This document shows positions 33,137 to 55,503 of a stretch of DNA of 64,000 nucleotides, piece by piece. The notes below the pieces were generated by a model that was given only the letters and a program-made list of their open reading frames with translations, did no database searches and was not told the origin of the DNA. Source of the DNA: Diphasiastrum complanatum (Eukaryota > Streptophyta > Lycopodiopsida > Lycopodiales > Lycopodiaceae); NCBI GenBank assembly GCA_029204225.1, contig CM055109.1:1500673-1564672 (forward strand), given 5' to 3'. Made by a program: the position numbers and the translations under genes. The stretch's first letter is position 1; each line of letters opens with the position of its first letter.

Positions 33137-33718
33137 TGTAGAATAAATGCTCTTCTAAAATCACAAACATTTATGAATTTTAAAGATCTATGAAAGGCCT
33201 AAAGCTCACAAGATTGCCTGTAGCCTTGTCTCTATCAAACTAGCACACAAGCTTGAATGATACACAATTAGATCTTGACAAAAATTCCTAGCTTTCACTC
33301 TCACAATTTTTTTTTGCTTTACACTTTTCTTAGATGTTTCACTTCAACTAAGGATCTGAACAAATCAGCCTCTTAGATCTGATCTTTAACTCCAAAATGA
33401 AATGCTTCAATGATCCAAAACTCTATTTGGTCATAGTCATTAGCTAGAATGAATCTAGATCAATACTATGCTTCAAAAAGCACTAAATTTGGACTAGAAT
33501 TGAGATTATAGGACCAAAAAACACAAGGTAACTTGAAATGAAAGCTGTTGTATGGTTTCGCACGTGTGAAAAGTACATACATAGCCTCCAAGTCGATTTG
33601 ATCCAAATAGACACAAGCTATCACTCTAGATGAACTCGCCCTCACTAGTATTGGCCAAAAACAAATTTTGCCAATGATCTTTGCAAGTTTTATGAATCAA
33701 AAGATCACTCTCTTAATC

Positions 33719-33731
33719 GGCTCTGATACCA
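33719..33731 (-). promoter_or_regulatory. primer-binding site, initiator-Met tRNA type
   Basis: The minus strand reads TGGTATCAGAGCC three bases after the LTR end TTTCA. An identical site sits in duplication copy B at 49373-49385. Confidence 0.85.
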
Positions 33732-33734
33732 TGA

Positions 33735-34592
33735 TGAAATTTCAGTTTTAGGAAATTAATGATTGTACTTAACAATTATAGAGAGTTATTGGTTGCTTAA
33801 TCAATGGATCTATCAAGTTCTACACTTTAGATCTTGATCTAGATTCACTACACTTAGATTTAAGCAAGAGCAATGGATCAAATCTTCATAAACAAGTGAG
33901 AGCGGCCTCACACGTGTGGAGTACTGTCCACTGTACGGCCTGCACCTGAAACAACAAGTACATAGATTCTTGATAGCAATCATTCAATAAAATCACAATT
34001 CTATTGACTAGAAATCTCACAAAAGTGTAGAATGCAAAAGTCTCATCCATCTCATTAGCAAAATGATGATCCTTTTATGGATCAAGTACATCCACGAGTT
34101 TGGTACAATCCAATAGGTCTTCACACGTGTGAAGAGTGCCACATCACTCAGATCTATCCATTTGATTCATCCTTGATTCTTATCCAAAGTTGACCTTCTA
34201 GAATATGGCTAAAATCCAAAGAGCTACTCCCCTAGAATATAGGAATATTCTCTACAAAATAGGATCTAAGGAAAATGTTCAACTCTTATCTTCTAGAACT
34301 CTATACACATGTGTGAACATCCACTTGCCATGTTGGAGCATTTACTCATGCACATGCAAGGATAAGCTAACTTCTAGGTGACTAGTCAACTTGACTAAAA
34401 ACTAGTCATATTATGTTCACACTTGACTTGATTGATACAAAATCAAAGTAGATATTTACAAATATGAAAATTACTTTCTTTCACACGTGGGAACAGGCTC
34501 CACACATGTGAAATCAGATCATAAAAATTGTACTCATGATTGATCTTTATTTACAATAAAAAATGACAAGTGAGAAGTGACAATTTTCAACA
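33735..34592 (-). repeat. copia 5' LTR with G-box-like palindromes
   Basis: On the coding strand it starts TGTTGAAAATTGTCACTTC and ends CTGAAATTTCA, the canonical TG...CA, right before the primer-binding site. Length is 858 bp. It contains several CACACGTGTG or CACATGTG palindromes (about 33908, 34120, 34310, 34483, 34504). Confidence 0.85.
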
Positions 34593-34596
34593 TATC

Positions 34597-35732
34597 TCTC
34601 TCTACTAATCTAGATCCATTCATTTTGCTGCTGTAAATATTTTTACAGTCTGCAGAAATACAAGGAAAGTCGATGACAGTCTGCATCGACATGCCCAACA
34701 TCGACTTTTTTTGACAATGGTTTTGAGCCCGGCCTCGACATCGAAGTCTTCGACTTCCACGTCATCGACTTCGTCGACTTCAAAGTCTCCGACTTCGACG
34801 TCTAATGAAAGGGAAGTTACAAAGTCCTTGACTTCCTCAAGATTGAAGTCTCCGACATCTGCTCAAGGGAAGATATGAAGTCATCGACTTCCTCAACATT
34901 GAGTCTCCAACGTCTACTCACGACAAGCTACAAAGTTGTCGAGTTCATCGACATTGAAGTTTTCCAAATGTCAATGTCATCAATTTGGTGGATGACTAGT
35001 ACATTTGTCAGAGTTGGACAAAATCTCCAACTAAATCAGATATTGTCCAAGTGCAACTACCAACAACATGTAGTGCCTTAATCATGTTTGTAAATTACTC
35101 ATTAATCATTCTTTTATTCGGTTAGCCATGTGTATATATACAGCTACTTATCAGTTGCTGCGGTTAGGCTCCATGAACAACCAGAGGCTCCATCTGCTAT
35201 CTGCATGAACATTGTATCAACTCACTTGTTGACCAGTTTGGTCAAGTTGAGCTTTAGAGCATAATTGCTTTTATCTTCCTCTCTATTATCACAGAATATT
35301 GTTTCAGGAGGACCGCGACTCTGCATGCATTCCAGACTGTATATTTTTTTATGACTGAATAACTTATGTTCCAATAATCTAAGTCACATCATCTTGAATG
35401 CTTTCATTAGTTCATGTCTTATTCGTTGTTAGTAGATTAAATCATTCTTGTATGACTAATAGATCTTGTTGATTTATTGCTCCAATGTACTTCACGTGTA
35501 TGCTTCCGTAAAGCTAAATTCTATAATCAAGATAATTTGTGCATGGCTAGGGAATCGACTTAGTCGATCTAGCAACTTTGAAGCTATGATCAATCAAGTA
35601 GGACAGACTTCGAGACTTTGAAGTCGATCTGATTACTAAATTGATAGAATTAGTTTCATGCATTGAGGATTCCCTACTACTGCATTTGCTGCAACAGACA
35701 TTGTCGGTTGATCCACCAGTCGAATCCCAACA
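34597..35732 (+). repeat. copia 5' LTR, 5'-truncated (copy A)
   Basis: It ends CGAATCCCAACA directly before a primer-binding site. Its left part (TAATCTAGATCCATTCATTT onward) matches about 30480 of the related block, which has some 390 bp more on the left, so the LTR start is missing where the opposite-strand copia LTR abuts. It carries a dense set of GAAGTC/TCGACTTC motifs at 34690-34950. Confidence 0.7.
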
Positions 35733-35744
35733 TGGTATCAAAGC
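35733..35744 (+). promoter_or_regulatory. primer-binding site (TGGTATCAAAGC)
   Basis: TGGTATCAAAGC follows the LTR terminus and differs from the initiator-Met consensus by one base. It lies within the part deleted from duplication copy B. Confidence 0.75.
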
Positions 35745-35880
35745 TTTTACTCTGACCTTTGAATGCATTTAGAGCTGACATTATCAAAACGATCATTCTG
35801 ATATAGTGTAGACATTTGCTGTAATTATTTCCATTCATATTGATCTACTATCTACATTACACTCATTCTGAAATTCCAAA

Positions 35881-37560
35881 TGGATTCGCAACCACAGTCT
35901 GCTCTAATGGTAGACAAACTTGATGGTTCAAACTACCACTTGTGTAAATTCAAGATGTTGTACTGATGGCCAAGGAGCTTTGGGAAATAGTCGTTGGAAC
36001 ATAACTACTTCCCAGTGTCGATGAGCATGCCATTTCCAAATGGAAGCTCAGGGATGACAAGGCTTTTGCCTTGATCACCCTTAACATCTCCAACACACAT
36101 CTTGGCCATATCAGACAAGCCCAATCTTCGAAAGAGGTTTGGAATATATTGAGTACATTATATAAAGTGAGAGATGTCACTTCGAAGCTGCATCTGAGGA
36201 GAAAGTTCTTCTCTCTTAGAATGTCAGAGAGTGATTATGTTCAGAATCACGTTAATCAATTTAAGACTCGATTAGAGCAGATGGTTGCAATAGGTTCAGT
36301 AGTCCTCTTATAAAAGCTAAGTGATGATGATTACCAAACCTCAGATATAACATTGTCCAAAGTCTTAATCATGTTGCTGCAATAGGAAACAAGAAGGAAT
36401 GGAGCATCCTTGTCCTCCATCAATGACTCACAAGCATTGTTCATCAAGAAGAAAACAAGGAAGCAACAGAAGAAGAAAGGTGTCCGACAAATCGACGACA
36501 ATCATAAGCAGTCACAGAAGGCCCAAAATCAGCAACCTGCTCAGAACCATAAAAGACTTACTCATGCAATCGACACCAAGCAGAAGATCAAAGATGATGA
36601 TGAGCAAGAAATCTTCATTGTGAGCCATCACCATGTCAAATAGTCAGAGGAAGGGTTCCTTGATTCTGGAGCAACATAACACATGACGGGCCATCAAGAA
36701 TGGTTTATCAACTATTTAGCCTACAACACCAAGAAATTCGTTCACCTCGGAGACAACAGCTCCCACATAATTGAAGGTGAAGGTACTGCTAGGATGAATT
36801 TTCAGAATGGAATGTTGAAGCTTGTACCAAATGTATTGTATGTCCCGAATCTGACAACAAATCTACTATCAATCAGTTGAATCACAAATTAAGAACATAG
36901 GGTAGAGTTTCAGATAGATTCCTATCAAATACTTGATAAGAGTAGGAGAGTTCTTGACAAGGATATCTCTATAGGCTTAGTCATTGTAATATTATGACTG
37001 GTCATGCTTTAAGCAGTTCAATATCTATCAATAGAGAATTGATTTGGCATTATAGACTTGGTCACCTTAATTATACATCAATAGGATACATGTCTAGACA
37101 TTCTTCAATTCATGATTTAGATTATCGAATTATCGACCCTCCTGTCTGCCAAAGCTGTATCATAGGAAAATAGGCAAGAAGGCCATTTAAGTCAAATCAA
37201 GAACATATTTCCAAAGATTTGTTAGACATTTGTACATACTGATATACGTGGCCCAATGCAAACACTTGGTGCTAAATTTTTTATTACATTCATAGATGAG
37301 TATTCCAAAAGAGCTGCTATATATTTTTTGAAGCACAAATCTAAAGCCTTCCAATTCTTCAAGAAATACAAAGAAAATGCTGAGTTGCAGACAGACAAGA
37401 AGATCTTAGGAACGACAACTATGGTGAATACATATAAAATAAATTCAAAAATTATTTGTCAGCCAATGGCATTAAGCAACGGTTTGCTGCTTTCTACTCT
37501 TCACAGTCAAATGGACTGGCAGAAAGGAAGAACATGACCTTAGTCAAATCTGCCAATGAA
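35881..37560 (+). pseudogene. copia gag-protease-integrase remnant (copy A)
   Basis: Gag opens MDSQPQSALMVDKLDGSNYH at 35881, with frameshifts, through DDKAFALITLNISNTHLG and SSKEVWNILSTLYKVRDV. A Lys-rich stretch (36410-36640) follows. The protease motif reads FLDSGAT then a stop (36664-36682) and MTGHQEWFINYLAYN. Next come LYVPNLTTNLLSIS, the GAG-pre-integrase LIWHYRLGHLNYTSIGY, and integrase to SNGLAERKNMTLVK at about 37545, where the palindrome begins. RT and RNase H are absent. Many stops and frameshifts; dead. Confidence 0.8.
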
Positions 37561-37640
37561 GCATGATCACGTCAAATCTGCCAATGTCATTGGCAGATTT
37601 GACTAAGGTCATGTTCTTCCTTTCTGCCAGTCCATTCGAC
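37506..37640 (+). repeat. imperfect palindrome at the truncated end of the copia integrase (copy A)
   Basis: Arms 37506-37559 and 37587-37640 are 54 bp each with one mismatch, around a 27-bp spacer that itself repeats GTCAAATCTGCCAATG. The left arm encodes the integrase stretch with AERKN; the right arm is its inverted copy. The second duplication copy has a cleaner version (52484-52613). Confidence 0.95.
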
Positions 37641-38373
37641 TGGCAGAAAGGAACTGCAACATACGTTTTAGCAAAGCGTCATCTTCCTCTTGTAGATCAG
37701 ATATCTTAGTAGAACAACTACTGTAGCAACGATCTTTCTTTCCATCAGATTAACTTTTGATGACTCTTTAACAAAGTTCTCAACAATACTAAGTAGCGAC
37801 CTGTCACAAATGATTTTCTGTTGATAGCATGTAGTGATAGCTCTTCAAAGGTAACTAGTCCTGGCCAATGTTCCTTATTCCAACAACAATAGCTCTTCCA
37901 CAGAGATCTGGCCAGTAGTAATCTGTTTGTCCATGCAACGATCTCCATCCACGCAACGATCTCCAACTGCAATAGTGATCCGAATCACCTCCAGTGATCA
38001 ACCTTGAAGGAATCATTGTCACAGATGATACTCTTGCTACTTGCTATTGATTTAGGTGTGGTACAGATTGTGTACAACCTTCTGCCCCTCAGCACTCCTG
38101 TTGATGCAAAAGACTAATTGGATATGCCCTATTATTGTTCACTGTTATAGTTATAATTTTTATGGCCTGTCTCCCTTCGATTGCTCCAGTGACTCTAAAT
38201 TAATCTGGGCTGGACCTACAAAGCTTTGTAGTATGATGCTCCAGGTAGTTCGACGGGAAGGCTTTAATCGTTTAAGGAGTAGAGAAAAAACTTTTCACGC
38301 AATTATGCTACTTTTGCCTAGCTTCCATGCTCAAGAAGATTCAGGATTATATGAAGGGTAAGGTGCATACTCA

Positions 38374-38376
<3 letters not shown>

Positions 38377-38438
<62 letters not shown>
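38377..38438 (+). repeat. (TC)n microsatellite (copy A)
   Basis: About 31 TC units. The equivalent tract in copy B is about 96 bp. Confidence 0.97.
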
Positions 38439-38440
<2 letters not shown>

Positions 38441-38657
38441 CGCTACCTGCTACTTGTCAGAGACAAACGCATGCTATAAATCCATAACTTTCCATGGGTG
38501 TGGTGTACCCTATTTTAGCCCCCCACCATGCATGCACGCCTTCAATTTTCAACCCTCGATTCAACCTTTAACGTTCACTTTCTACCAAACTCCATTGACA
38601 GCTAACCTCAACACATAGTATTGCATTTGCAAAGCAAGGCCAAAAAGCCTCGATATT

Positions 38658-39280
38658 ATGGTCGACAATGTTCTAAAATGTCGTAGGGCTGATCCTTCAT
38701 GGCTTGATGAAAGATGTGAGACTTCAAATAATGAAAATAGTATGCATGCTAAAAATCTGCAGCAATGGCTTGAAGAGGCTCAAACAAAAACAGGAGTTCT
38801 TTCCAAACACTTGTATTTTCAAGCACAGCATAGTCATTTGCATTCTCGGAATTGCATCATGTCACAATCATCAGGTCATCAAACTAGCAATACTATTCAT
38901 GAAAACGGAGCAGGGAAGAAGGGAAAGGAAAAAGTAGGCCGTCATAAGTCCCAACAGACTTCAGCTGCTCTTATGCTTTTTAAGGAAGAAACCAATTGGG
39001 CTGCTTCGCAGCGAGATGATCGTGGCTCAAATAGTGAAGGGGATACACCAACATCTATTAGTCTTTTCATATTTCTAGATGATAATAAACTTCAACATGT
39101 TGAGAAAGTGGCTTCTAGTGCTGATTTTACACATCTTATGAAGCATTGGAGTTGCACTATGTTGGGAAGGACATTTTGAAGGATTTCATGATCTTTCGTG
39201 TTGGTGCCTCATCGTTCAAGGATGCATTAAAGCTTGGAATAGAAGTTTATCAAAATCTAAAGAGTATATATGATTAACAA
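38658..39280 (+). pseudogene. chimeric frame with enolase-like C-terminus, frameshifted (copy A)
   Basis: It starts MVDNVLKCRRADPSWLDERC at 38658. One T is missing near 39136 relative to copy B (CATCTTATG against CATCTTTATG), so the frame ends early at 39179 and the enolase-like segment (about 39173-39280) is out of frame. Otherwise the same as the 206-residue copy B frame. Confidence 0.6.
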
Positions 39281-39599
39281 TATTAAGCCATGTTGTAATT
39301 GATTCTTTTAAGTAGGATCTTGTTGTATAAGACAACACATTGGAATTATACATACTACAACAATTTTGGAGCTCTATCTCGTATGCTTCTTGGAGTGCTA
39401 GAGCTTGTATATCATGTCCTTATCCTTGGGATGTTTTGTTTATGTTTGATGATTACCAACAGATTGTCTTATCTACATAGATTAAATCTCTTTGTGAGCA
39501 CTCTGATATCTTCAATAACACTGAAACACCATAACTTATATGGTTTTTTAAGCAGAGATTAGCTGCCCCTTTCCAGATACTTTCACATAAATTTTCTCG

Positions 39600-39855
39600 T
39601 GTAGGATATAAAGGTAAGGACAATGTTGTCTTCACTCATGGCTTTCTCCCCTGATGATATCCAAGTCCCTTTCCTTTGGATCGATTCTGCATGAATTTCT
39701 TCCGTCGTTCTACATGGATGCATACGCCCTTTTGAGCTTTTCGGTCTTGGTCCTGTCCCACAGAAGAGCAATCTGCAAGAAGCTGACGGACAACATTATA
39801 CATGCGAAAGGCATATACTTGAGACCATCGCTTTTGGTTTGCGAAGAAGGCTGTA
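39600..39855 (+). pseudogene. unrecognised gene fragment (copy A)
   Basis: One plus-strand frame reads SPDDIQVPFLWIDSA, a stop, and then FELFGLGPVPQKSNLQEADG and RHILETIAFGLRRRLYT up to an (AC)n run. The composition looks protein-like and the frame is unbroken for about 55 codons. I do not recognise the product. The frame upstream, 39370-39600, has weaker protein-like stretches in shifting frames. The identical sequence is in copy B. Confidence 0.3.
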
Positions 39856-40273
39856 TACACACACACACACACACACAACAAAGTTGCTGGCTTCAAGTTT
39901 GGAGATCGTTGAAGATACGTAGATGTATGTATTGATCTTTGAAGCAGTACTTTCCTACCTCTACTTCACCTCACAGCAGCACTCGTAATATCCTGGAGTC
40001 AGCATCCATGTGAGAAGCAGAGTTGACAGGCAGCCCACGTAGGTAGTTTATCAACCTTATTCTAAACAAGATATAAAAGAAAACAGCGAGTGGTAGTTGT
40101 AAGGTGCTGCTCGTGCAGCATTCATCCAACAATTTGAGCTGAGTAGAGTAAGGAATTATCCGATGACTACGGGAAAGAACAGCCAGGCGATGGATGGAGA
40201 GAGAGAGAGAGAGAGAGAGCACGCGCGAGACCAGGAGCTAGCATCTATAGACATCGAGAGGAAAAAATTATTA

Positions 40274-40354
40274 TGGTCCATGCAGGATTCGAACCTGCTT
40301 CATCAATTCTTTGATTTTGGTGGATGATGGCTGTGCCAATTAAGCTAATGGACC
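40274..40354 (-). tRNA. tRNA-like gene, atypical anticodon arm (copy A)
   Basis: On the minus strand an 81-nt unit has a perfect 7-bp acceptor stem (GGTCCAT with ATGGACC), discriminator A, an A box TAGCTTAATTGG and a B box GGTTCGAATCC inside a 5-bp T stem (GCAGG/CCTGC). TTTTTT follows about 8 nt downstream, a Pol III terminator. The acceptor and T arm resemble plant tRNA-Ile. The anticodon arm does not fold normally: CATCA pairs with TGATG but encloses 19 nt, without a U before any plausible anticodon, and leaves a 2-nt variable loop. I cannot assign an anticodon. It may be an atypical, intron-bearing or dead tRNA. Confidence 0.55.
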
Positions 40355-40506
40355 ACCTTGATTTGGCTTATTTGTTCACTCTATTTCACATCTTTAATGA
40401 CTTCTAAAGAATGTAGGTGAACAAGCAATACATAAATCTTCTAGACTTGGCAAACACACACACACACCTCACTACACAAATAAGTGACACATGTTTAGTT
40501 CACATG

Positions 40507-40508
<2 letters not shown>

Positions 40509-40569
<61 letters not shown>
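40509..40569 (+). repeat. (AG)n microsatellite (copy A)
   Basis: About 30 AG units; shorter in copy B (55504-55557). Confidence 0.97.
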
Positions 40570-40572
<3 letters not shown>

Positions 40573-40787
40573 TGTAAAGGATACTCCTTGTAATCTATTG
40601 AAGTATGCGCTTCTAATGATGTTTTCAGATTTATTAACTTAAAATAACTTTTATCCGAACATGCAGAAAAGAGCATAAAGGTGAGAAATCCTTGGATAAG
40701 TTGCAAATGATTAAACAATCACACCAAGAAGACATACTCTGATACACATAGAGATTCAAGATATTGGAGAAAAGATTGTGAGCGCCT

Positions 40788-41030
40788 TTGCCATTTAGTA
40801 AGGAGGTTAAATATCTCAAAAATGGCCTTGATAAAGTCTTGAGAAGAGGAACCATCACAAAGAAATGTCATAGGAGCTCCAAGAATGACAAGAAAAAAAA
40901 AAAAAAAAAGACAAAAGAAAATCTTGCCATGAGCTATTCCAAGTGTGAAATGGTTTGCATAGTTTGTGGACATGGAGAGCACTTCCACGATAATTGCTCC
41001 CAAGGACCTCATGTCATTTGTGGCAACTAG
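40788..41030 (+). CDS. small zinc-knuckle frame, possible transposase C-terminus (copy A)
   Basis: An 80-residue frame contains a poly-Lys run and then CIVCGHGEHFHDNC, a perfect CX2CX4HX4C knuckle, close to its end. Zinc knuckles at the C-terminus after a basic stretch occur in Mutator-like transposases, and also in gag proteins. The preceding 40 residues are not recognised. It is identical in copy B. The frame could be a fragment of a larger gene whose upstream part is lost. Confidence 0.35.
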   Translation: MPFSKEVKYLKNGLDKVLRRGTITKKCHRSSKNDKKKKKKKTKENLAMSYSKCEMVCIVCGHGEHFHDNCSQGPHVICGN

Positions 41031-41045
41031 AACTATCTTACAACA

Positions 41046-41857
41046 AACTACAAGATATGTTGCATCTCAACAATAACCCATTAACATTTATGTAGTCCCA
41101 TTGTCACTACTAATGGTCTCAGGTTCGAGCCTCCCCTTGGAAACCAAGAAGCATTGTCACTACTAATCTCAAGTTAAGGGTGTTGGCTCAATTGGTTATC
41201 TTGACATCCAAAGTTTCTTTGGTCTCAAGTTCGAGCCTCTCCTTGGAAACCAAGAAGCATTGTCACTACTATCCCAGGTTCAAGCCCCTCTTGGTAACCA
41301 AGGTGCAATATCACTACTAAAAAAAATAATTTTTGTGACATAACATTTGTGCTTCAAAAAATGTCATGAATTGACACAGTTTGTGACTTTTTTTGTCAAA
41401 AAATAAAATTCAAATTGATGTTGCTAAGTGAGATTGCGCCCATCACAATTTGATGAAATTGTTCTATCCAATACTTGTCACGGATAGACAGATCTTGCTG
41501 ACCAACATAAAATGTCGTAGAGCAACATGTATGTAAATGTAATTTGTTAATATATATTTTTTAATATGGATTTCCTTTAAGTTTAAGTTCAATTTTTTTG
41601 AGGAGTCACTCACATCTTTTATCTCTCAATCTGAGTGTTCAATATGCATCATACTATTTTTCTTTTCAAATCTACTTAGAGATCGTTTCTCTTGTTGTAT
41701 TTTAGCAATCACAGAATGTTAGTAATTTTAATTTTACCATATACAAACATAAATCATCACAAGGAGCATAAGCAACCTCTTGAAGAAAAAGTTTATTTAT
41801 TAAAGCTAGCAACATAAACTCTTCTACCAAGTATATCTCACATCTTATACATCACAG
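41046..41857 (+). repeat. one end of a DNA-transposon family, interrupted by a tRNA-derived array (copy A)
   Basis: Starting at ATGTTGCATCTCAACAATAA it parallels the left terminal repeat of the element at 56855-61011: motif order TCACTACTA or CTACTACAAA, TTTTGTGACATAACATTTG, GGAGTCACTCACATCTTTT, AGCATAAGCAACCTCTTGAA. It is diverged and stops at 41857, where gypsy sequence begins. Confidence 0.65.
41104..41319 (+). repeat. tandem tRNA-derived SINE-like array with CACTACTA boundaries (copy A)
   Basis: Three units each start CACTACTA and carry a B-box-like AGGTTCGAGCC or close variant followed by CTTGGAAACCAAGAAGCATT (last unit shortened). The middle unit also has an A box TGGCTCAATTGG (41184-41195) 31 bp before its B box, like a complete tRNA-derived promoter. 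TCACTACTA flanks the whole array on both sides (41104 and 41311). Confidence 0.7.
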
Positions 41858-41896
41858 GTCAAGTAATGTTCTGAGTTTATTGAAACATCAAAACGA

Positions 41897-42811
41897 ATGG
41901 AAGAGTCTGAATCATCTGTCGAGTCTGAATCGGAATCCAACTCAGCAGATGAGGAAGAGTCTTCAGATTATTCGTCCTATTCTTCTTCGTCAAAAGAAGA
42001 ATCTTCTCATAGGAAATCGAAGAGTAAGAATTCAGATAGGAAAAAGAGAATGGAGAAGTCTGACAAGATGGATCCATTAAGAAAGAGTGTTGAGATATTA
42101 GCGAAGGAAATGGGCGATTTAAAAGTCATGTCCGACGTTAAGGCCAAGCACAAGAAAGTGAAATCTAACGCCAATGTTTAGTGTACCGCTTGTGGGAAGG
42201 AAGGTCACTCTAAGACTAACTGTCCCAATTTAGAAGAGGAATTATTCCTCTGTCCGGTCAATAACCATGAGGAGGTAGCTTATACTACAACTCCTTCGAA
42301 CCGAAAGAACTCTATACCAAAACCACGTACTGGTCAACAGTGCACCATTTTGCGTAGAGAAAGGACAAGAGATTCCACTCCTCCACCCAGAGTAAGGGGT
42401 TTGTGTTACAACTTCGGAGCCCCTGGTCACTATTCGTCTGATTGTCGTGAACCCAGGAGGTCAGTAGGATATGTGCCGATCTGTGCTAACTGTAAATGCA
42501 AAGGGCATGTCACTGCTAAATGACCTCAGCCACAACAGCCGCGGTCCAAACCAAGGTTTCTAAATTCGCCTAGAGAAGATGAGCTACGACCATCTAAAAC
42601 TAATACTGACATGGTAGTCCGAAGGATAGAAATAGAGTTAGAAATACAAAATCAAGACCAAGAATGGCCTGATTTAGATGTAGAAGTAAACAAATTAACT
42701 ACTAAAAGTAGTAAAGACGCTTCAACTCTTAGAGATAAGAGGAAAATCAAGAAGATGAAATCTGCGAAAAACGTGACAGATAAAGCAAAAGTCACAAAAC
42801 AGCCAGCTTAG
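41897..42811 (+). pseudogene. gypsy gag C-terminus with three zinc knuckles, two damaged
   Basis: A Ser/Glu-rich start (MEESESSVESESES) leads to a Lys-rich stretch, then CTACGKEGHSKTNC (intact CX2CX4HX4C, about 42182-42223). A second knuckle reads CYNFGAPGHYSSDC, with Phe in place of the second Cys. A third reads CANCKCKGHVTAK and then TGA (42521-42523), where the last Cys is expected, so TGC to TGA destroyed the knuckle and ends the frame. A Lys-rich frame follows to 42811. The upstream gag core is absent. Confidence 0.75.
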
Positions 42812-42998
42812 ACTTTGATAGGTCAGCTGAAAAATACTACGAGGTTGATATTAGTTCGGAAGCTAAGAAGCTTTTAGACGAAGAAACAAACAAAGTAAAA
42901 AAAGTAACGTTCTCAGACCCAGTTATAAGTAGTGAGATACCTAGAGACCCATCGTCACTTAGACATCGCTCATATGACATAGTGGAAGATTTTGGCTC

Positions 42999-43975
42999 AT
43001 GCCCAATATAACTTTTAAACAGTTAGTAGATGATAATCAGTATCATAAGAAAAAGATTAAGCAATTTTTGCAAAAGAAAAAGAAAAGGAAAGCAAAGTTG
43101 TCGCTAGTCAATGTAGGACTAATAAACCATGGTGACGAAGGTCAACTCGAGATTCAGGTAGTAATCAATGGCTGCATTTTAGATAGTGTGCCTATAGATT
43201 CTAGATCTAGTGTAAACATAATGACCGAAGAAACAACATACGAGTTAGGCATTCACCATAGAATAGCACCCACATTAAGACATTTGAGATTAGCTGATGC
43301 AACTAGAAGATCACCAATAGGAGAATTGTCTCAAGTTATAGTCTATATTGGAGATCATAAGTTTCTAGTGGACTTTATTATATTCAAGACTACATGAGAG
43401 TCATCGTTTAAAGTATTATTAGGACGACCATGGCTCTATCAAGCCGATGTCATAACTCATTGGAAGAAGAAGGAAATTACCTTCAGAGATCAGATGGAGA
43501 CATCAGCCATGGAAAAAGTCGTAAAAGAATTATTGTACCTTGGGAGAAGGACAAATATGAAGGTGAGACACCTACATCTTCCTCAAGTTATACTTCAGAG
43601 GATGAAGGAGTTCATTCTGTAAGGACTGAGGAACAAGAGAGGTTTGTCACATTATCCATACCTGCATACAACAATAGAGTAGAATATGTAGATAGAGGAG
43701 ATTGTGGAGTCCTAGAGATTAGTGCTATTATAGGAGGCCATACCATTGATAGAATTCTAGTAGACTTAGGATCTAGTATTAACTTAATGTCCGAGACAAT
43801 GGTTAAGGAGTTAGAATTAGAAAACTAGATCCGGCCTACTACTCACCATCAAATCCATTTAGCAGATGCATCTAAATGCATACTAGTAGGAGAGTTGAGG
43901 GGTATTAGCATAATTACAGAGATAGAGACGTTCGTTATGAATTTCTTTGTCATAAACCCATTAGACACATCACTG
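42999..43975 (+). pseudogene. gypsy protease region with two retropepsin-like domains
   Basis: First unit: VPIDSRSSVNIMTEETTY (about 43190-43240), then a stop and VLLGRPWLYQADVITHWK. Second unit: ILVDLGSSINLMSETMVKEL (43754-43815), also followed by a strand-rich stretch (VGELRGISIITEIETFV). Both resemble the retropepsin D(S/T)G(S/A) region; the catalytic motif is DSR in the first and DLG in the second, so neither matches the DSG or DTG consensus fully. Two such domains in series is unusual. Confidence 0.65.
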
Positions 43976-43988
43976 TACTCAATATTAT

Positions 43989-45654
43989 TTGCATTCTCAC
44001 AGCCACAGTCCAATAGTGGGTCACCTTATGAGATGGGGTGAGGAGGTTGGAGGACCTACTAAATCATGGATCAGTTTCATAGAATGCTATGAGATTGATG
44101 ACGAAGAAAAAATGGAACTACCAACAACATCCGAGACGAGGGAAGTTTTGGGTGGAAACAGAGCAAGCTTGACTGAGAGAATGGTTGATAAGAATGATTT
44201 TATAGAAATAGAAATTAGTAAAGGTAAAATTTTGAATTTATATAAATACCAATCAGACCAAGAGCGTGAAGAGTACATACTACTTCTTCAGAAATATCAA
44301 AATGTGTTTGCTTGGTCGATGGATGATTTGACAGGAATACCGGCTAAATGGGGAGAACATAGAATAGATCTCATTAATGGAGCAATACCTGTAAGGCAGA
44401 GACAATACAGGTTGAATCCGAAGTATTCTTTGTTAGTAAAAGACAAATTAGATAGATGCTTAGAGCGGGTCATATATCATGTTCTAAGAAGTGAATGGGT
44501 ATCACCAATAGTCATAGTACCTAAGAAGAAAACAAATAAGATTAGAGTCTGCGAAGACTTTAGGAAACTAAATGCTACTGCTATAGCAAAGGATTATCAT
44601 CCTCTGCCTTATACAGATACCATTCTTGACCAGGTAGCTGGTCATAAACGTTATAGTTTTTTAGATGGTTTCTCAGGTTACAATCAAGTTTTTATTAAAG
44701 CGGAAGATAGATTCAAGACCACTTTTACCACTGATTGGGAGACGTACGCTTACACGCGAATGCCGTTTGGTCTTTGTAATGCACCCACCACATTTCAACG
44801 TATGATGACAAAGATTTTCCAAAAAAATTTATGTAAGTTTTTAGAAATTTTTATGGACAACTTTTGTGTCTATTTGTCAACTAAAGATCTTTTAGATGCA
44901 TTAGAAAAGACCTTGAGAAGATGTCAAGAGACATCTCTTAAATTGCATCCAGCCAAGTGTTACTTCTGGATGAGGGAAGGCATCCTGTTAGGCGATAAAA
45001 TTTCGAAGGACAACATTCAAACCGACATCGAAAAAGTAAAAATGATTTTAGAATTATTAGAACCAACCAATTTACGAGAGCTCAGAGGATTTCTAGGACA
45101 TGTAGGACATTATCATAGGATAATTAAGGCCTATGCAATAGTAACTCCCTTAACAAGTTTATTAAAGAAATTTGTTGAGTATCATTGGTCTACAAGAACA
45201 TCAGCAAGCTTTTGAAAAGCTAAAGCAGTCATTAGTAGAAGCGACCCTAGTTAGATCTCCAAATTGGACCAACAAGTTCTATGTATATGTGAATACTTCA
45301 TCATTTGCAATAGGTGTAGTACTTAGTCAGAAAGATGACCAAAATATAGATTACCCAATTTATTATGCAGGTAGACAACTTGCAGCATCAGAAAAGAATT
45401 ATTCTGCTACAGAGCGTGAAGCATTAGGAATGATTTATTCAGTTAAGAAATTTAGACATTATCTTTTAGAATACCCTTTTGTTTTTCATGTAGATCACTA
45501 TGCATTAAAATATTTAGTGAATAAACCTTATCTTTTTGGTAGGATAGCTAGATGGGTATTGTTATTAGATGAGTTTAATTATGAAGCAGAGTTAAGGAGA
45601 GGCAAGGATCATCAAAATATTGATTATATATCATGCCTCCAAACCAAAAATTAG
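43989..45654 (+). pseudogene. gypsy reverse transcriptase and RNase H
   Basis: RT (43989-45215) has WVSPIVIVPKKKTNKIRVCE, FRKLNATAIAKDYHPLPY, FGLCNAPTTFQRMM and the catalytic box FMDN at 44850-44861, where FMDD or YVDD is expected. The thumb reads LRELRGFLGHVGHYHRII. RNase H follows with a frame change near 45190: NTSSFAIGVVLSQKDD has Asn where the first catalytic Asp normally sits (DAS), then SATEREALGMIYSVKKFRHY and FHVDHYALKYL. The frame ends at 45654. Both enzymes appear inactive. Confidence 0.85.
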
Positions 45655-45693
45655 TTTAATCCTATTTTTGATGAATTTCCGGATGAACATATA

Positions 45694-46940
45694 ATGTGGA
45701 TCCAATCTAAAATATCAATTGATATGGATATTATTAACTTTTTAAAGGATCATATTTATCCTGATCATTTTAATAAACAGCAAAAAATTGTTTTTCTTTC
45801 AAAAGTAGGACCCTATATGATTATAAATAAAATATTGTATAAATTAGGAGCCGACAATAATCTTCGTCGTTGTTTAGAACACACCGAAACCGTCACTATA
45901 ATACGTGTGCTTCATGAAGAAGATTCGGGAGGTCACTATGCTCTTAAAAATACTGCAAGAAAGATCCTTAATGCCAAGTATTGGTGGCCTACCGTCTATA
46001 GAGATGTTAAATCATTTATTAAAAAATGTGATGCATGTTAGAGGATGGGGAAATCCAGCTTCACGACACATTGGCCACTTACACCGATTATTCCCTTACC
46101 ACCTTTTGAGAAGTGGGGGATAGACTTTGTAGGGCCTATCAAACCGACCACTCGTAAAACCCGTCGACGTTACATCTTTGTTGCTAAAGATTATGCTACC
46201 AGAATGGTAGAGGCCGAAGCCACAGTTAAAAACGATGTTAAGACTGTAGCAAAGTTTTTCTTCCAAAACATTATCACACGTTATGGATGTCCCTTAGAAC
46301 TCATTAGTGATAGGGAAACCCACTTCCTTAACTAGACCCTTGAGCTATATTATCATATTTTTCCATCACACATCGTTAAACCACTCCATATAATCCTAAA
46401 GTGAATGGACTTATTGAGCGAGCAAATGAATTTTGTGCAACATTCTGAATAAAGTGACAGAAGCACATTCTTTTAATTGGAATCAAAAGTTACTATCTGT
46501 TTTATGGGCATATAGAACTGCCGAGAAGATCACAACTAGGCAAACTCCATATCGTGTATGGAATGCATCCCATATTACCAATAGAATTCGAAGTTCTGAC
46601 ATTCCACATTAGCAATGAGGAAGGAATGGATGAACACGATAGTCTCTAGGAGCGGATGATAGATTTGACGCAACTGGGGGAGGATTGTTATCTTTCATTA
46701 ATTGAGACTGAACGATCAGTCTACTAAATAAATAAAAATTAAACGACGAGACTATGTGCTTCTATATGACAACAGACACATGTTGTTTCCTGAGAAATTA
46801 CATACCAGATGGATGGGACCTTACAAAGTCATAGAAGTTCCTAATAATGGATCGTTACAGTTAGCCGATCTCAAAGGACATTTACTTGATACTCGAGTAA
46901 ATGGATCAAGAGTGAAACACTACTATTTTTATGACTAATT
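45694..46940 (+). pseudogene. gypsy integrase, broken by stops
   Basis: The zinc-binding H2C2 region reads LHEEDSGGHYALKNT...FIKKCDAC, followed by TAG at 46039. The core continues with FEKWGIDFVGPIKPTT (first Asp), ELISDRETHFLN (second Asp) and TAG at 46333. A weak reading NGLIERAN (Glu) lies near 46405. The C-terminal part (46756-46938) has WMGPYKVIEVPNNGSLQLAD and ends HYYFYD. No chromodomain follows. Confidence 0.8.
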
Positions 46941-47734
46941 CCTGATATATATGACGAAGCTCAATTTTTGCGAAATTTGCGACACTGTTCCCATTTCATC
47001 CAACTCGCTAATTCTAGTTTTGAAACTTCGAAAAACCCAACACTTTTCTTCCATCCTTTACCTTCGAAAAATTTGCAAAAAAAAAACCAAAATGTTCGCT
47101 AGTACGTTGCACATTTATTTGCCACATCAAATTTTTTCCACCATGTTGTCAGCATATGAGAAATACGTGAAAAACTCGACATCTTCGCTTCATCAATAAG
47201 TCACTGTTTTTGTGAAAGCAAAAATTTCGACTCTTAAACCTTCGCATTTTTCGGGATTCCTTTTGGCACTTTACTTGCTTGAATTCATTTCCCATTCATG
47301 ATTATTTTCACGAAAATGCCGACACGTCAGCCTTTGCAAATTTCGCTCATATATTTCAACAAAAAAAATGACAATCTTCATTGCCAATATCATATACATT
47401 GTTTCATAGATTGTTTGTACTATTTATTTTCGCAGTCCAATACTCAAGAATACCGAGCTGAACTTTTGCAAACTGAGCGAGGCATTTATGTATTTTATTA
47501 ACTTATTTTATTTATTTTTAATTTTTTTTAGGACTAGATACTTTGGTCTTGAGCTTGTACCTTCAAAATAAGGACACACTTTCATTAAATACTTGTCTAA
47601 TCTGTCGATATATCATCAATACACCAAATACCTTAAACACTTCTGTTTTTCGTTTTCCTCTTCCATCACTCTTTGCTTCCCATTTTCGCAATTCTTATGA
47701 TCGGGCTCTTTTTCGCCATTGCTAGCTCACTAAT
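46941..47734. other. gypsy 3' flank, possible LTR or UTR remnant
   Basis: AT-rich, with recurrent TTGCGAAATTT, TTCGCAAAA and CTTCGAAAA words. No matching block occurs upstream of the gypsy gag, so I cannot call an LTR. No coding region. Confidence 0.35.
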
Positions 47735-48372
47735 ACTACTGCCATGGCCATTATTTTCAAATCGCATCTCGGCAGTTCTATATGCCCATAAAATAGATGG
47801 TAACTTCTGATTCCAATCAAAAGAATGTGCTTCTATCACTTTATTCAAAATTTTGCACAAAATTCCATTTGCTCTCTCAATAAGTCCATTCGCTGTAGGA
47901 TTATATGGAGTGGTTTAACGATGTGTGACGGAAAAATATGATAATATAGCCTCAATGGTCTGGTTAAGGAAGTGGGTTCCCATGTCACTAACGAGTTCTA
48001 AGGGACATCCATAATGTGTGATAATATTTTGGAATAAAAACTTTGCTACAATCTTAGCATCATTTTTAACTGTGGCTTCGGCCTCCACCATTTTGGTAGC
48101 ATAGTCCGTAGCAACAAGGATGTAACGTCGACGGGTACGAGTGGTTGGTTTGATTGGCTCTGCAAAGTCTATCCCCCACTTCTCAAAAGGTGCCAAGGGA
48201 ATAATCCGTGTAAATGGCCAATGTGTCACGCAGCTGGCTTTCCCCACATTCTATGGCACACATCACATTTTTGAATAAACAATTTGACATCTCTATAGAC
48301 GTAGGCCACCAATACTTAGCGTTAAGGATCTTTCTTGCAGTATTTTTAAGAGCATAGTGACCCCCCGGTTTC
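47735..48372 (-). pseudogene. inverted gypsy integrase fragment
   Basis: The minus strand repeats the integrase of the plus-strand element: GGHYALKNTARKILNAKYWW, FEKWGIDFAEPIKPTTRT, NDAKIVAKFLFQNIITHYGC and FDWNQKLPSILWAYRTAE. It ends at about 47770, where the match with the plus-strand copy stops. It lies tail to tail with the plus-strand element. Confidence 0.8.
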
Positions 48373-48489
48373 CTCCTGCACAATCAAGACTCCAGGATGC
48401 ATACATAAAATTTCAAACTGTAATCTGAGCCTTGAATATTGTTGATCTTTTATCAATTTATAGAATTGCTTGAAAGCAATCTGTCATAT

Positions 48490-48895
48490 GCTCACCGTTT
48501 AAGGCTCTCATATCTCACTTTTTTGCTAGAAATGATATACTCTTGCTCCGGTAAGAAGATTGAAGCAAGAGCAAAGCGAATGAAACTCTTGAGATTTGGG
48601 TCTCTGATATAAGACAGCTTATATCCCCTCTTCTCAAGGTATGCTTCCTCTTGAAAAGCTCCGCTTCTAGTAATGTAGTCGGGCCTCGTAACTGGAATTG
48701 TGCCGTCAATAGGCAAGCCTAATGCACGACAAACAAATTTTCAGAAATAACAATCTCCTGATTGCGGATGATACTATGAACATGTCCGTCATCAATTTCA
48801 TTAATATTTCTAATGAATTCATGACAAAGTTCCATTAGAATGACTGAAGGATCAAATTGGAGTAATCTATCAATCCGAGCTCTAACAGCAAAGTG
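48490..48895 (-). pseudogene. unrecognised reading frame beside the inverted gypsy fragment
   Basis: Minus-strand translation, with one frame change near 48720, reads FAVRARIDRLLQFDPSVILM, MELCHEFIRNINEIDDG, then LGLPIDGTIPVTRPDYITRS and NLKSFIRFALASIFLPEQEY. It looks like a real protein with hydrophobic spacing. It resembles, in style only, plant-retroelement ORFs of unknown function. It ends shortly before the gypsy integrase fragment (48372), so it might be part of the same element or captured. Confidence 0.4.
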
Positions 48896-48910
48896 TTGTA
48901 AAACTAGTAA

Positions 48911-48960
48911 AAAAAAATTAAACGAGGAGACTATTTGCTTCTATATGACAACAGACACAA
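48911..48960 (+). repeat. short direct copy of gypsy sequence at the border of duplication B
   Basis: AAATTAAACGAGGAGACTAT and the next bases, ending ACAACAGACACA, match the plus-strand gypsy at 46737-46783. It sits exactly at the left edge of duplication copy B. Confidence 0.8.
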
Positions 48961-49388
48961 TTTCTTTTTACTTTACACTTTTCTTAGATGTTTCACTTCA
49001 ACTAAGGATCTAAACAAATCAGCCTCTTAGATCTGATCTTAAACTCCAAAATGAAATGCTTCAATGATCCAAAACTCTATTTGGTCATAGTCATTAGCTA
49101 GAATGAATCTAGATCAATACTATGCTTCAAAAAGCACTAAATTTGGACTAGAATTGAGATTATAGGACCAAAAAACACAAGGTAACTTGAAATGAAAGCT
49201 GCTGTATGGTTTCGCATGTGTGAAAAGTACATACATAGCCTCCAAGTCGATTTGATCCAAATAGACACAAGCTATCACTCTAGATGAACTCGCCCTCACT
49301 AGTATTGGCCAAAAACAAATTTTGCCAATGATCTTTGCAAGTTTTATGAATCAAAAGATCACTCTCTTAATCGGCTCTGATACCATGA

Positions 49389-50232
49389 TGAAATTTCAGT
49401 TTTAGGACATTAATGATTGTAATTAACAATCATAGAGAGTTATTGGTTGCTGAATCAATGGATCTATCAAGTTCTACACTTTAGATCTTGATCTAGATTC
49501 ACTACACTTAGATTTAAGCAAGAGCAATGGATCAAATCTTCATAAACAAGTGAGAGCGGCCTCACATGTGTGGAGTACTGTCCACTGTACGGCCTGCACC
49601 TAAAACAACAAGTACATAGATTCTTGATAGCAATCATTCAATAAAATCACAATTCTATTGACTAGAAATCTCACAAAAGTGTAGAATGCAAAAGTCTCAT
49701 CCATCTCATTAGCAAAATGATGATCCTTTTATGGATCAAGTACATCCACAAGTTTGGTACAATCCAATAGGTCTTCACACGTGTGAAGAGTGCCACATCA
49801 CTCAGATCTATCCATTCGATCCATCCTTGATTCTTATCCAAAGTTGACCTTCTAGAATATGGCTGAAATCCAAAGAGCTACTCCCCTAGAATATAGGAAT
49901 ATTCTCTACAAAATAGGATCTAAGGAAAATGTTCAACTCTTATCTTCTAGAACTCTATACACATGTGTGAACATCCACTTGCCATGTTGGAGCATTTACT
50001 CATGCACATGCAAGGATAAGCTAACTTAACTTGACTAAAAACTAGTCATATTATGTTCACACTTGACTTGATTGATACAAAATCAAAGTAGATATTTACA
50101 AATATGAAAATTACTTTCTTTCACACGTGGGAAAAGGCTCCACACATGTGAAATTAGATCATGAAAATTGTACTCATGATTGATCTTTATTTACAATAAA
50201 AAATGACAAGTGAGAAGTGACAATTTTCAACA
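49389..50232 (-). repeat. copia LTR of the minus-strand element (copy B)
   Basis: The counterpart of 33735-34592, with the same TGTTG start and TTTCA end and the same primer-binding site (49373-49385). It is 844 bp; an 18-bp stretch between two AACTT words is missing. The gag of this element is absent on the left because the duplication starts in its leader. Confidence 0.85.
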
Positions 50233-50236
50233 TATC

Positions 50237-51343
50237 TCTCTCTACTAATCTAGATCCAATCATTTTGTTGTTGTAAATATTTTTACAGTCTGCAGAAATA
50301 CAAGGAAAGTTGATGACAGTCTGCATCGACATGCCCAACATCGACTTTTTTTGACAATGGTTTTGAGCCCGGCCTCGACATCGAAGTCTTCGACTTCCAC
50401 GTCATCGACTTCGTCAACTTCAAAGTCTCCGACTTCGACGTCTAATGAAAGGGAAGTTACAAAGTCCTTGACTTCCTCAAGATTGAAGTCCCCGACATCT
50501 GCTCAAGGGAGGATACGAAGTCATCGACTTCCTCAACATCGGAGTCTCCAACGTCTACTCACGGCAAGCTACAAAGTCGTCGAGTTCATCGACATTGAAG
50601 TTTTCCAAACGTCAATGTCATCAATTTGGTGGATGACTAGTACATTTGTCAGAGTTGGACAAAATCTCCAACTAAATCAGATATTGTCCAAGTGCAACTA
50701 CCAACAACATGTAGTGCCTTAATCATGTTTGTAAATTACTCATTAATCATTCTTTTAATCGATTAGCCATGTCTATATATACAGCTACTTATCAGTTGCT
50801 GCGGTTAAGCTCCATGAACAACCAGAGGCTCCATCTGCTATCTGCATGAACATTGTATCAACTCACTTGTTGACCAGTTTGGTCAAGTTGAGCTTTAGAG
50901 CGTCATTGCTTTTATCTTCCTCTCTATTATCGCAGAATATTGTTTCAGGAGGACCGCGACTCTGCATGCATTCCAGACTGTATATTTTTTTTATGACTGT
51001 ATAACTTATGTTCCAATAATCTAAGTCACATCATCTTGAATGCTTTCATTAGTTCATGTTTTGGTTATTCGTTGTTAGTAGATTAAATCGTTCTTGTATG
51101 ACTAATAGATCTTGTTGATTTATTGCTCCAATGTACTTCACCTATATACTTCCGTAAAGCTAAATTCTATAATCAAGATAATTTGTGCATGGCTAGGGAA
51201 TCGACTTAGTCGATCTAGCAACTTTGAAGCTATGATCAATCAAGTAGGACAGACTTCGAGACTTTGAAGTCGATCTGATTACTAAATTGATAGAATTAGT
51301 TTCATGGACTGAGGATTCCCTACTACTGCATTTGCTGCAACAG
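50237..51343 (+). repeat. copia LTR, truncated at both ends (copy B)
   Basis: The counterpart of 34597-35732, but the last part of the LTR, the primer-binding site and the gag start are gone. The junction at 51341-51344 retains CAGA, which occurs at both edges of the missing stretch in copy A. Confidence 0.75.
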
Positions 51344-52546
51344 ATATAACATTGTCCAAAGTCTTAATCATGTTGCTGCAATAGGAAACAAGAAGGAATG
51401 GAGCATCCTTGTCCTCCATCAATGACTCACAAGCATTGTTCATCAAGAAGAAAACAAGGAAGCAACAGAAGAAGAAAGGTGTCCGACAAATCGACAACAA
51501 TCATAAGCAGTCACAGAAGGCCCAAAATCAGCAACCTGCTCAGAACCATAAAACTTACTCATGCAATCGACACCAAGCAGAAGATCAAAGATGATGATGA
51601 GCAAGAAGTCTTCATTGTGAGCCATCACCATGTCAAATAGTCAGAGGAAGGGTTCCTTGATTCTGGAGCAACATAACACATGACGGGCCATCAAGAATGG
51701 TTTATCAACTATTTAGCCTACAACACCAAGAAATTCGTTCACCTCGGAGACAACAGCTCCCACATAATTGAAGGTGAAGGTACTGCTAGGATGAATTTTC
51801 AGAATGGAATGTTGAAGCTTGTACCAAATGTATTGTATGTCCCGAATCTGACAACAAATCTACTATCAATCAGTTGAATCACAAATTAAGAACATAGATA
51901 TCTATCAAATACTTGATAAGAGTAGGAGAGTTCTTGACAAGAATATCTCTATAGGCTTAGTCATTGTAATATTATGACTGTTCATGCTTTAAGTAGTTCA
52001 ATATCTATCAATAGAGAATTGATTTGGCATTACAGACTTGGTCACCTTAATTATACATCAATAGGATACATGTCTAGACATTCTTCAATTCATGATTTAG
52101 ATTATCGAATTATCGACCCTCCTGTCTGCCAAAGCTGTATCATAGGAAAGTAGGCAAGAAGGCCATTTAAGTCAAATCAGGAACATATTTCCAAAGATTT
52201 GTTAGACATTTGTACATACTGATATACGTGGCCCAATGCAAACACTTGGTGCTAAATTTTTTATTACATTCATAGATGAGTATTCCAAAAGAGCTGCTAT
52301 ATATTTTTTGAAGCACAAATCTAAAGCCTTCCAATTCTTCAAGAAATACAAAGAAAATGCTGAGTTGAAGACAGACAAGAAGATCTTAGGAACGACAACT
52401 ATGGTGAATACATATAAAATAAATTCAAAAATTATTGCTCAGCCAATGGCATTAAGCAACGGTTTGCTGCTTTCTACTCTCCACAGTCGAATGGACTGGC
52501 AGAAAGGAAGAACATGAGCTTAGTCAAATCTGCCAATGAAGCATGA
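51344..52546 (+). pseudogene. copia protease-integrase remnant (copy B)
   Basis: The counterpart of 36346-37560 with the same stops, including the stop within the protease motif (DSGAT then TAA) and the truncated integrase end AERKNMSLVKSANEA. Differences from copy A are a 3-bp deletion near 51550, a short deletion near 51898 and single-base changes. Confidence 0.8.
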
Positions 52547-52613
52547 GTGATCATGCTTCATTGGCAGATTTGACTAAGCTCATGTTCTTCCTTTCTGCCA
52601 GTCCATTCGACTG
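52484..52613 (+). repeat. perfect long palindrome (copy B)
   Basis: Arms 52484-52546 and 52551-52613 are exact inverted copies of 63 bp around the loop GTGA. The left arm is the end of the copia integrase reading. Single-stranded DNA or RNA of this stretch would form a very stable hairpin. Confidence 0.97.
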
Positions 52614-53333
52614 GCAGAAAGGAACTGCAACATACGTTTTAGCAAAGCGTCATCTTCCTCTTGTAGATCAGATATCTTAGTAGAACAACTACTGTAGCAA
52701 CGATCTTTCTTTCCATCAGATTAACTTTTGATGACTCTTTAACAAAGTTCTCAACAATACTGAGTAGCGACCTGTCACAAATGATTTTCTGTTGATAGCA
52801 TGTAGTGATAGCTCTTCAAAGGTAACTAGTCCTGGCCAATGTTCCTTATTCCAACAACAATAGCTCTTCCACAGAGATCTGGCCAGTAGTAATCTGTTTG
52901 TCCATGCAACGATCTCCATCCACGCAACGATCTCCAACTGGAATAGTGATCCGAATCACCTCCAGTGATCAACCTTGAAGGAATCATTGTCACAGATGAT
53001 ACTCTTGCTACTTGCTATTGATTTAGGTGTGGTACAGATTGTGTACAACCTTCTGCCCCTCAGCACTCCTGTTGATGCAAAAGACTAATTGGATATGCCC
53101 TATTGTTCACTGTTATAGTTTATGGCCTGTCTCCCTTCGATTGCTCCAGTGACTCTAAATTAATCTGGGCTGGACCTACAAAGCTTTGTAGTATGATGCT
53201 CCAGGTAGTTCGACGGGAAGGCTCTCATCGTTTAAGGAGTAGAGAAAAAACTTTTCACGCAATTATGCTACTCCTGCCTAGCTTCCATGCTCAAGAAGAT
53301 TCAGGATTATATGAAGGGTAAGGTGCATACTCA

Positions 53334-53434
<101 letters not shown>

Positions 53435-53651
53435 CGCTACCTGCTACTTGTCAGAGACAAACGCATGCTATAAATCCATAACTTTCCATGGGTGTGGTGT
53501 ACCCTATTTTAGCCCCCCACCATGCATGCACGCCTTCAATTTTCAACCCTCGATTCAACCTTTAACGTTCACTTTCTACCAAACTCCATTGACAGCTAAC
53601 CTCAACACATAGTATTGCATTTGCAAAGCAAGGCCAAAAAGCCTCGATATT

Positions 53652-54272
53652 ATGGTCGACAATGTTCTAAAATGTCGTAGGGCTGATCCTTCATGGCTTG
53701 ATGAAAGATGTGAGACTTCAAATAATGAAAATAGTATGCATGCTAAAAATCTGCAGCAATGGCTTGAAGAGGCTCAAACAAAAACAGGAGTTCTTTCCAA
53801 ACACTTGTATTTTCAAGCACAGCATAGTCATTTGCATTCTCGGAATTGCATCATGTCACAATCATCAGGTCATCAAACTAGCAATACTATTCATGAAAAC
53901 GGAGCCGGGAAGAAGGGAAAGGGAAAACTAGGCCGTCATAAGTCCCAACAGACTTCAGCTGCTCTTATGCTTTTTAAGGAAGAAACCAATTGGGCTGCTT
54001 CGCAGCGAGATGATCGTGGCTCAAATAGTGAAGGGGATACACTAACATCTATTGGTCTTTTCATATTTCTAGATGATAATAAACTTCAACATGTTGAGAA
54101 AGTGGCTTCTAGTGCTGATTTTACACATCTTTATGAAGCATTGGAGTTGCACTATGTTGGGAAGGACATTTTGAAGGATTTCATGATCTTTCGTGTTGGT
54201 GCCTCATCGTTCAAGGATGCATTAAAGCTTGGAATAGAAGTTTATCAAAATCTAAAGAGTATATATGATTAA
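53652..54272 (+). CDS. chimeric 206-residue frame with enolase-like C-terminus (copy B)
   Basis: An open frame from MVDNVLKCRRADPSWLDERC to SIYD. The first ~170 residues are not recognised; they are polar with a Lys/Gly stretch (AGKKGKGKLGRHKSQQ). The last ~32 residues read KDFMIFRVGASSFKDALKLG and then IEVYQNLKSIYD, closely resembling the conserved enolase segment (Q)EFMILPVGA(S/T)SF...G.EVYH.LK. Only this piece of enolase is present, so no enolase activity is expected. It looks like a captured exon joined to other sequence, or a retained gene fragment. Copy A has a frameshift. Whether it is transcribed is unknown. Confidence 0.5.
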   Translation: MVDNVLKCRRADPSWLDERCETSNNENSMHAKNLQQWLEEAQTKTGVLSKHLYFQAQHSHLHSRNCIMSQSSGHQTSNTIHENGAGKKGKGKLGRHKSQQTSAALMLFKEETNWAASQRDDRGSNSEGDTLTSIGLFIFLDDNKLQHVEKVASSADFTHLYEALELHYVGKDILKDFMIFRVGASSFKDALKLGIEVYQNLKSIYD

Positions 54273-54594
54273 CAATATTAAGCCATGTTGTAATTGATTC
54301 TTTTAAGTAGGATCTTGTTGTATAAGACAACACATTGGAATTATACATACTACAACAATTTTGGAGCTCTATCTCGTATGCTTCTTGGAGTGCTAGAGCT
54401 TGTATATCATGTCCTTATCCTTGGGATGTTTTGTTTATGTTTGATGATTACCAACAGATTGTCTTATCTACATAGATTAAATCTCTTTGTGAGCACTCTG
54501 ATATCTTCAATAACACTGAAACACCATAACTTATATGGTTTTTTAAGCAGAGATTAGCTGCCCCTTTCCAGATACTTTCACATAAATTTTCTCG

Positions 54595-54850
54595 TGTAGG
54601 ATATAAAGGTAAGGACAATGTTGTCTTCACTCATGGCTTTCTCCCCTGATGATATCCAAGTCCCTTTCCTTTGGATCGATTCTGCATGAATTTCTTCCGT
54701 CGTTCTACATGGATGCATACGCCCTTTTGAGCTTTTCGGTCTTGGTCCTGTCCCACAGAAGAGCAATCTGCAAGAAGCTGACGGACAACATTATACATGC
54801 GAAAGGCATATACTTGAGACCATCGCTTTTGGTTTGCGAAGAAGGCTGTA
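54595..54850 (+). pseudogene. unrecognised gene fragment (copy B)
   Basis: The same frame as at 39600-39855 (FELFGLGPVPQKSNLQEADG), with the same internal TGA. Unrecognised. Confidence 0.3.
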
Positions 54851-55268
54851 TACACACACACACACACACACAACAAAGTTGCTGGCTTCAAGTTTGGAGA
54901 TCGTTGAAGATACGTAGATGTATGTATTGATCTTTGAAGCAGTACTTTCCTACCTCTACTTCACCTCACAGCAGCACTCGTAATATCCTGGAGTCAGCAT
55001 CCATGTGAGAAGCAGAGTTGACAGGCAGCCCACGTAGGTAGTTTATCAACCTTATTCTAAACAAGATATAAAAGAAAACAGCGAGTGGTAGTTGTAAGGT
55101 GCTGCTCGTGCAGCATTCATCCAACAATTTGAGCTGAGTAGAGTAAGGAATTATCCGATGACTACGGGAAAGAACAGCCAGGCGATGGATGGAGAGAGAG
55201 AGAGAGAGAGAGAGCACGCGCGAGACCAGGAGCTAGCATCTATAGACATCGAGAGGAAAAAATTATTA

Positions 55269-55349: not shown

Positions 55350-55501
55350 ACCTTGATTTGGCTTATTTGTTCACTCTATTTCACATCTTTAATGACTTCT
55401 AAAGAATGTAGGTGAACAAGCAATACATAAATCTTCTAGACTTGGCAAACACACACACACACCTCACTACACAAATAAGTGACACATGTTTAGTTCACAT
55501 G

Positions 55502-55503
<2 letters not shown>

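Follow-up and report, generated by a model that had tools for sequence, protein, structure and literature searches.

The duplicated region and its contents

The window, i.e. the whole stretch of 64,000 nucleotides analysed here, corresponds to positions 1500673-1564672 of contig C18 in the 1.74-Gb genome of Diphasiastrum complanatum and is free of N. Comparison of the window with itself revealed a direct duplication of 8.5 kb with copy A at 33302..41856 and copy B at 48956..56843; these copies, the copia fragment, the palindrome parts and the adjoining repeat described below are on the plus strand. The copies lie about 15 kb apart and are separated by 7.1 kb of other sequence. Outside the palindrome that each of them carries, 71 of 5170 aligned sites differ before position 39302, while 2 of 2547 differ beyond it (39302-41856 versus 54297-56843). 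To judge from this alignment, the last 2.5 kb are so similar as to suggest that the copies exchanged sequence or that the assembly was smoothed. About 647 bases of copy A (35695-36341) are missing from copy B, and as much of this segment aligns with other copia copies, a deletion in copy B is likely. We rejected the idea that two haplotypes had been assembled end to end because of the sequence lying between the copies and because their flanks showed no reported similarity in the self-comparison.

Both palindromes sit in a truncated Ty1-copia element, inside its predicted integrase region. In copy A the Ty1-copia-like fragment at 36102..37570, which is part of a longer copia-like stretch, was delimited by Pfam searches with stops read as X and by alignment to genomic copies. 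It comprises Pol_BBD, GAG-pre-integrase and the integrase region and runs into the palindrome, and the motif around the left arm is one that we take to belong to the integrase. Across the window, the reading frames that we picked out by eye are presumably copia- and gypsy-like, with Pfam backing some of them. Other copia copies in the genome align to the window as far as the centre of the palindrome (37570-37574 in copy A); alignments of the right arm to copia copies are in the opposite orientation. A genome-wide search for a 24-base pattern taken from the inner arm, with up to 3 mismatches allowed, gave three matches, namely in the left arm of A and in the left and right arms of B. The arms were also considered as terminal inverted repeats of a DNA transposon, a view that we rejected since they consist of sequence from the copia integrase and the inner arm occurs only at this locus.

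Several other features were noted. The last part of an open frame in copy B (53613-54272) matches the enolase C-terminal domain over 32 residues (E 1e-6) and is possibly a captured gene fragment; the shorter frame in copy A (38619-39179) gave no match. Both duplicates contain an Rfam tRNA match of 40.7 bits on the minus strand (40274-40354 and 55269-55349), which was not found by ARAGORN and is perhaps a relic. The acyltransferase family PF02458 is represented by two pieces on the minus strand, 16080-17003 and 17651-18064, which probably belong to a single gene with two exons or to a broken copy. Two inverted repeats with wide spacers, 45926-48367 (arms about 90% identical, 605 aligned bases) and 56855-61011 (about 87% over 867 aligned bases), are probably DNA transposons. 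The arms of both have drifted, in contrast to those of the short-looped palindrome.

Structure of the two palindromes

The palindrome of copy B (52484-52613) consists of a left arm of 63 bp (52484..52546), the loop GTGA (52547..52550) and a right arm of 63 bp (52551..52613). The arms are exact reverse complements, which agrees with the preliminary description of a perfect palindrome with a 4-nt loop. In copy A (37504-37642) the comparison of the arms yielded a left arm of 56 bp (37504..37559), a centre of 27 nt (37560..37586) and a right arm of 56 bp (37587..37642) with one mismatch, C at 37637 facing A at 37509. Self-complementarity, which had been claimed for each copy, is therefore perfect in copy B and interrupted at this pair in copy A. 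The right end of the region had been placed exactly at 52613, while the left end, given as 37506, lies 2 bases inside the palindrome. The centre of copy A had been called disturbed, and we found it to be rebuilt: it consists of the old arm end, the loop TCAC (37567-37570), to which the loop of copy B is inverted, and an extra arm segment (37571-37586). This segment is a second copy of the arm letters 37543-37558 and ends one base before its reverse complement, 37588-37603.

The copies are separated by a single paired change, located 34 bases from the outer arm edge in each of them. Positions 37538/37608 are C/G in copy A and the pairing positions 52518/52579 are G/C in copy B, which confirms that a complementary change affected both arms of a duplicated palindrome. 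Folding as single-stranded DNA gave -81.4 kcal/mol for B and -65 kcal/mol for A, and 0 of 200 shuffles were as good for either.

Polarity of the paired change and signs of copying between arms

As outgroups we used 39 distinct copia stretches from elsewhere in the same genome, keeping one of each set of identical stretches and excluding the loci of the window itself. They derive from three genome searches, each of which scored 40 candidates (of 805, 497 and 637) and from which 8 of 78, 30 of 44 and 30 of 42 matches were cut out. The stretches, a sample of a larger family with five near-duplicate pairs among them, share 83-87% identity with the locus across the 131-base query. The palindrome was present in none of the 39. 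Aligned together with the two left arms, they showed C at the paired site in 38 cases, T in one and G in none. This count was preferred over an earlier one by text pattern (C 35, T 1, G 1, unplaced 2), whose stray G we think is a wrongly anchored match. Accordingly, C is the ancestral state, kept by copy A, and both arms of copy B have changed to the derived G/C pair (G at 52518). The mismatch in copy A has a different history, as 37509 is a change in one arm; the G state is present in both arms of B and in the right arm of A, and the outgroups have 26 G, 12 A and one gap. Since the mismatch has been kept, homogenisation has not reached this outer base.

Traces of copying were also seen in the left arm, at the loop and in the centre. 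C[CT]AAATG occurs in 38 of the 39 outgroups, and both palindromes carry CCAATGAAG instead. CCAATGAAG, CATTGGCAG and GGAACTGC were found in 0 of the 39 stretches, so we rejected the idea that the copia family carries such a palindrome natively. The reverse complement of GAAGCATGA lies to the right of the hairpin in 16 of 39 outgroups; that of the longer CCAATGAAGCATG occurs in one. The left arm was thus rewritten from the other side; both copies share the rewritten letters, and the rewriting would most simply have preceded the duplication. Here an arm carries the other arm's reverse complement at places where this is not so in unaffected relatives, which is the pattern of template switching or quasi-palindrome correction. 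Independent origins of the two palindromes were rejected, as they have both the outer junction and the rewritten arm in common. Among the 39 outgroups the loop reads TAAC 16 times and TCAC 11 times, with other letters in 7 and 5 unplaced; GTGA after GCATGA was found in none of the 39, and GCATGAGTGA was likewise absent from all of them. At the centre of copy B a 19-mer on the opposite strand is exact in 3 outgroups, compared with 11 nt on the same strand. For the centre of copy A the same length test gave 10 nt forward (11 copies) and 11 nt reverse (4 copies), values that indicate no orientation.

Taken as signs in the sequence, the rewritten left arm, the mutually inverted loops and the repeated arm segment in A support the copying of arm from arm. 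Together with the polarity of the paired site, they support the earlier proposal of hairpin-templated repair or arm-to-arm conversion after the duplication. This timing would apply to the change in copy B, but on the simplest reading the process was at work before the duplication too. The routes of copying, namely synthesis on a hairpin template, switching to the sister strand or conversion by recombination, cannot be told apart with certainty.

Proposed formation of the palindromes and alternative explanations

The best explanation in our view is a fold-back at a short natural hairpin followed by repeated template switching, to which we assign a probability of about 0.83. Against it stand the mismatch left in the arms of A, the fact that a single paired change sets the copies apart, and the weakness of the parental hairpin. 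The palindrome would have arisen by fold-back copying at the GCATGA-loop-TCATGC hairpin in the Ty1-copia integrase region. GCATGA-N4-TCATGC is intact in 17 of the 39 outgroups, or in 29 if the second half may start with A. The parental hairpin is weak, with -5.2 kcal/mol for a typed 39-base composite (z -1.31, 23 of 200 shuffles as good). At the outer switch point (37628..37650) the inverted arm stops at CAGTCCATTCGACTG, a 5-bp inverted repeat of the form CAGTC-N5-GACTG that is found in 24 of 39 outgroups. Beyond it forward copia letters resume and lead, via a common GAA, into an unrelated repeat (37651..38646). L074-L076 are other copies of this repeat that run into different sequence at the junction, with L074 and L075 identical around it. 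Each junction has a short inverted repeat or microhomology, as foldback inversions are expected to have, namely the 6-bp stem, CAGTC-N5-GACTG and GAA. A fold-back, a return switch and a microhomology jump would describe the three junctions, and the same rearrangement would have cut off the copia element and joined it to the unrelated repeat. A snap-back during reverse transcription, possible as an origin as well, was set aside.

In the fold-back scenario the left arm would next have been corrected to match the right arm and the duplication would have followed; a later exchange between the duplicates is possible instead and could have spread the rewritten arm to both. In copy B the C-to-G change in one arm would then have been copied to the other by a template switch within the palindrome, leaving in the inner part of the mutated arm and returning in the outer part of the other. 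The arm transfer and the loop inversion in B could be one event, with the polarity of the loop depending on the loop at birth. Alternatively, the palindrome may have been born with the loop GTGA, in which case B would have undergone arm copying only and A would have been inverted when its centre was rebuilt. The orientation at birth depends on the strand that folded, so that either the loop of A or that of B may be the inverted one. On both readings, copies A and B differ by a single loop inversion plus a single arm transfer. A further switch in copy A would have rebuilt the centre with the extra arm segment.

Among the rival explanations, independent point mutations that happen to match in the two arms of copy B are extremely improbable; the preliminary description had called them unlikely. 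Such an explanation profits from the fact that one paired site is involved, but the expected number of independent complementary paired changes is 0.0017, 0.0036 and 0.0081 at 1.4, 2 and 3% divergence, as calculated, not simulated, for 54 pairs with uniform target bases. C<->G changes between the duplicates number 6 over 2893 G+C sites, so that the expectation is still lower for this type of change. Moreover, independent mutations leave the rewritten arm, the loop inversion and the centre of A unexplained. Paired compensatory changes are usually taken as a mark of selected RNA structure, and selection on a transcribed hairpin, with a compensatory second mutation that keeps the pairing, has the stable predicted fold in its favour, albeit with DNA parameters. 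We consider it very improbable, because the palindrome sits in a broken retrotransposon, copy A has kept a mismatch in its arms and had its centre rebuilt, and Rfam at gathering thresholds gave no match at the palindrome.

Recombinational gene conversion between arms or sister copies, without a polymerase switch in a hairpin, would yield the same product, with arms alike and the base derived in both, and the duplicates seem to have exchanged sequence beyond 39302. However, with 56-63 bp the arms are probably rather short for homologous recombination, and strand switching typically leaves traces such as the extra arm segment in A and the inverted loop. We therefore regard conversion as improbable, although large palindromes are known to convert (PMC3723533). 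An artefact of assembly or polishing, in which the reads of one arm corrected the other or the duplicate was misbuilt, has to be weighed since the analysis covered a single assembly and the last 2.5 kb of the duplication are nearly identical. We judge it quite improbable, as homogenising of arms alone would not create a base found in 0 of 39 outgroups, the copies have sharp and different flanks, 7.1 kb between them and no N, and the rewritten arm is common to both.

Template-switch or quasi-palindrome mutation is a known class (PMC8604942, PMC8794818, PMC3820800). In Saccharomyces cerevisiae a template switch between the arms of an inverted repeat homogenises the arms and inverts spacers (PMC8604942). 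Of ten spacer inversions, one (REG2) was accompanied by homogenisation, perhaps as in copy B. The yeast cases are short repeats in coding genes and were recognised by comparing strains, whereas our locus has 56-63-bp arms in a broken retrotransposon and two paralogous copies. Similarly, compensatory double changes in the stems of RNA hairpins have been attributed to copying one side from the other (PMC8794818), but these lie in RNA genes, whereas an RNA function of our locus would be hypothetical. Foldback inversions in yeast resemble the proposed birth in that a short single-strand hairpin primes an inverted copy that a further rearrangement stabilises (PMC7467729); unlike these, the inverted copy here is about 63 bp and is deduced from an old scar. 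The arms of sex-chromosome palindromes also change yet stay alike, but these palindromes are far larger and their similarity is attributed to gene conversion (PMC3723533, PMC8981503). A small literature search, thin on subscription journals, found no plant palindrome that is duplicated and has a paired change of known polarity. The pair is a new, well-polarised and unusually clear case of a known mutation class, and the palindrome is best read as a mutational scar.

The position of the locus in a broken retrotransposon suggests that the mechanics of mutation alone can keep arms complementary. As two paralogous copies and dozens of palindrome-free copies exist in the same genome, birth, correction and later switches can be partly ordered. 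A more far-reaching and rather doubtful reading is that the palindrome of about 130 bp is a self-templating unit, which would have undergone three or more arm-templated events around a single duplication whose divergence is only about 1-2%. The events would be the arm correction, the arm conversion in B, probably with the loop inversion, and the rebuilding of the centre in A. If true, template switching would run ahead of point mutation at sites of this kind, and arms would stay alike without selection. Besides, the copia stretch L037 departs from the family sequence just past TTCATTGG, near the position of the palindrome centre, and may represent another break at the same hairpin.
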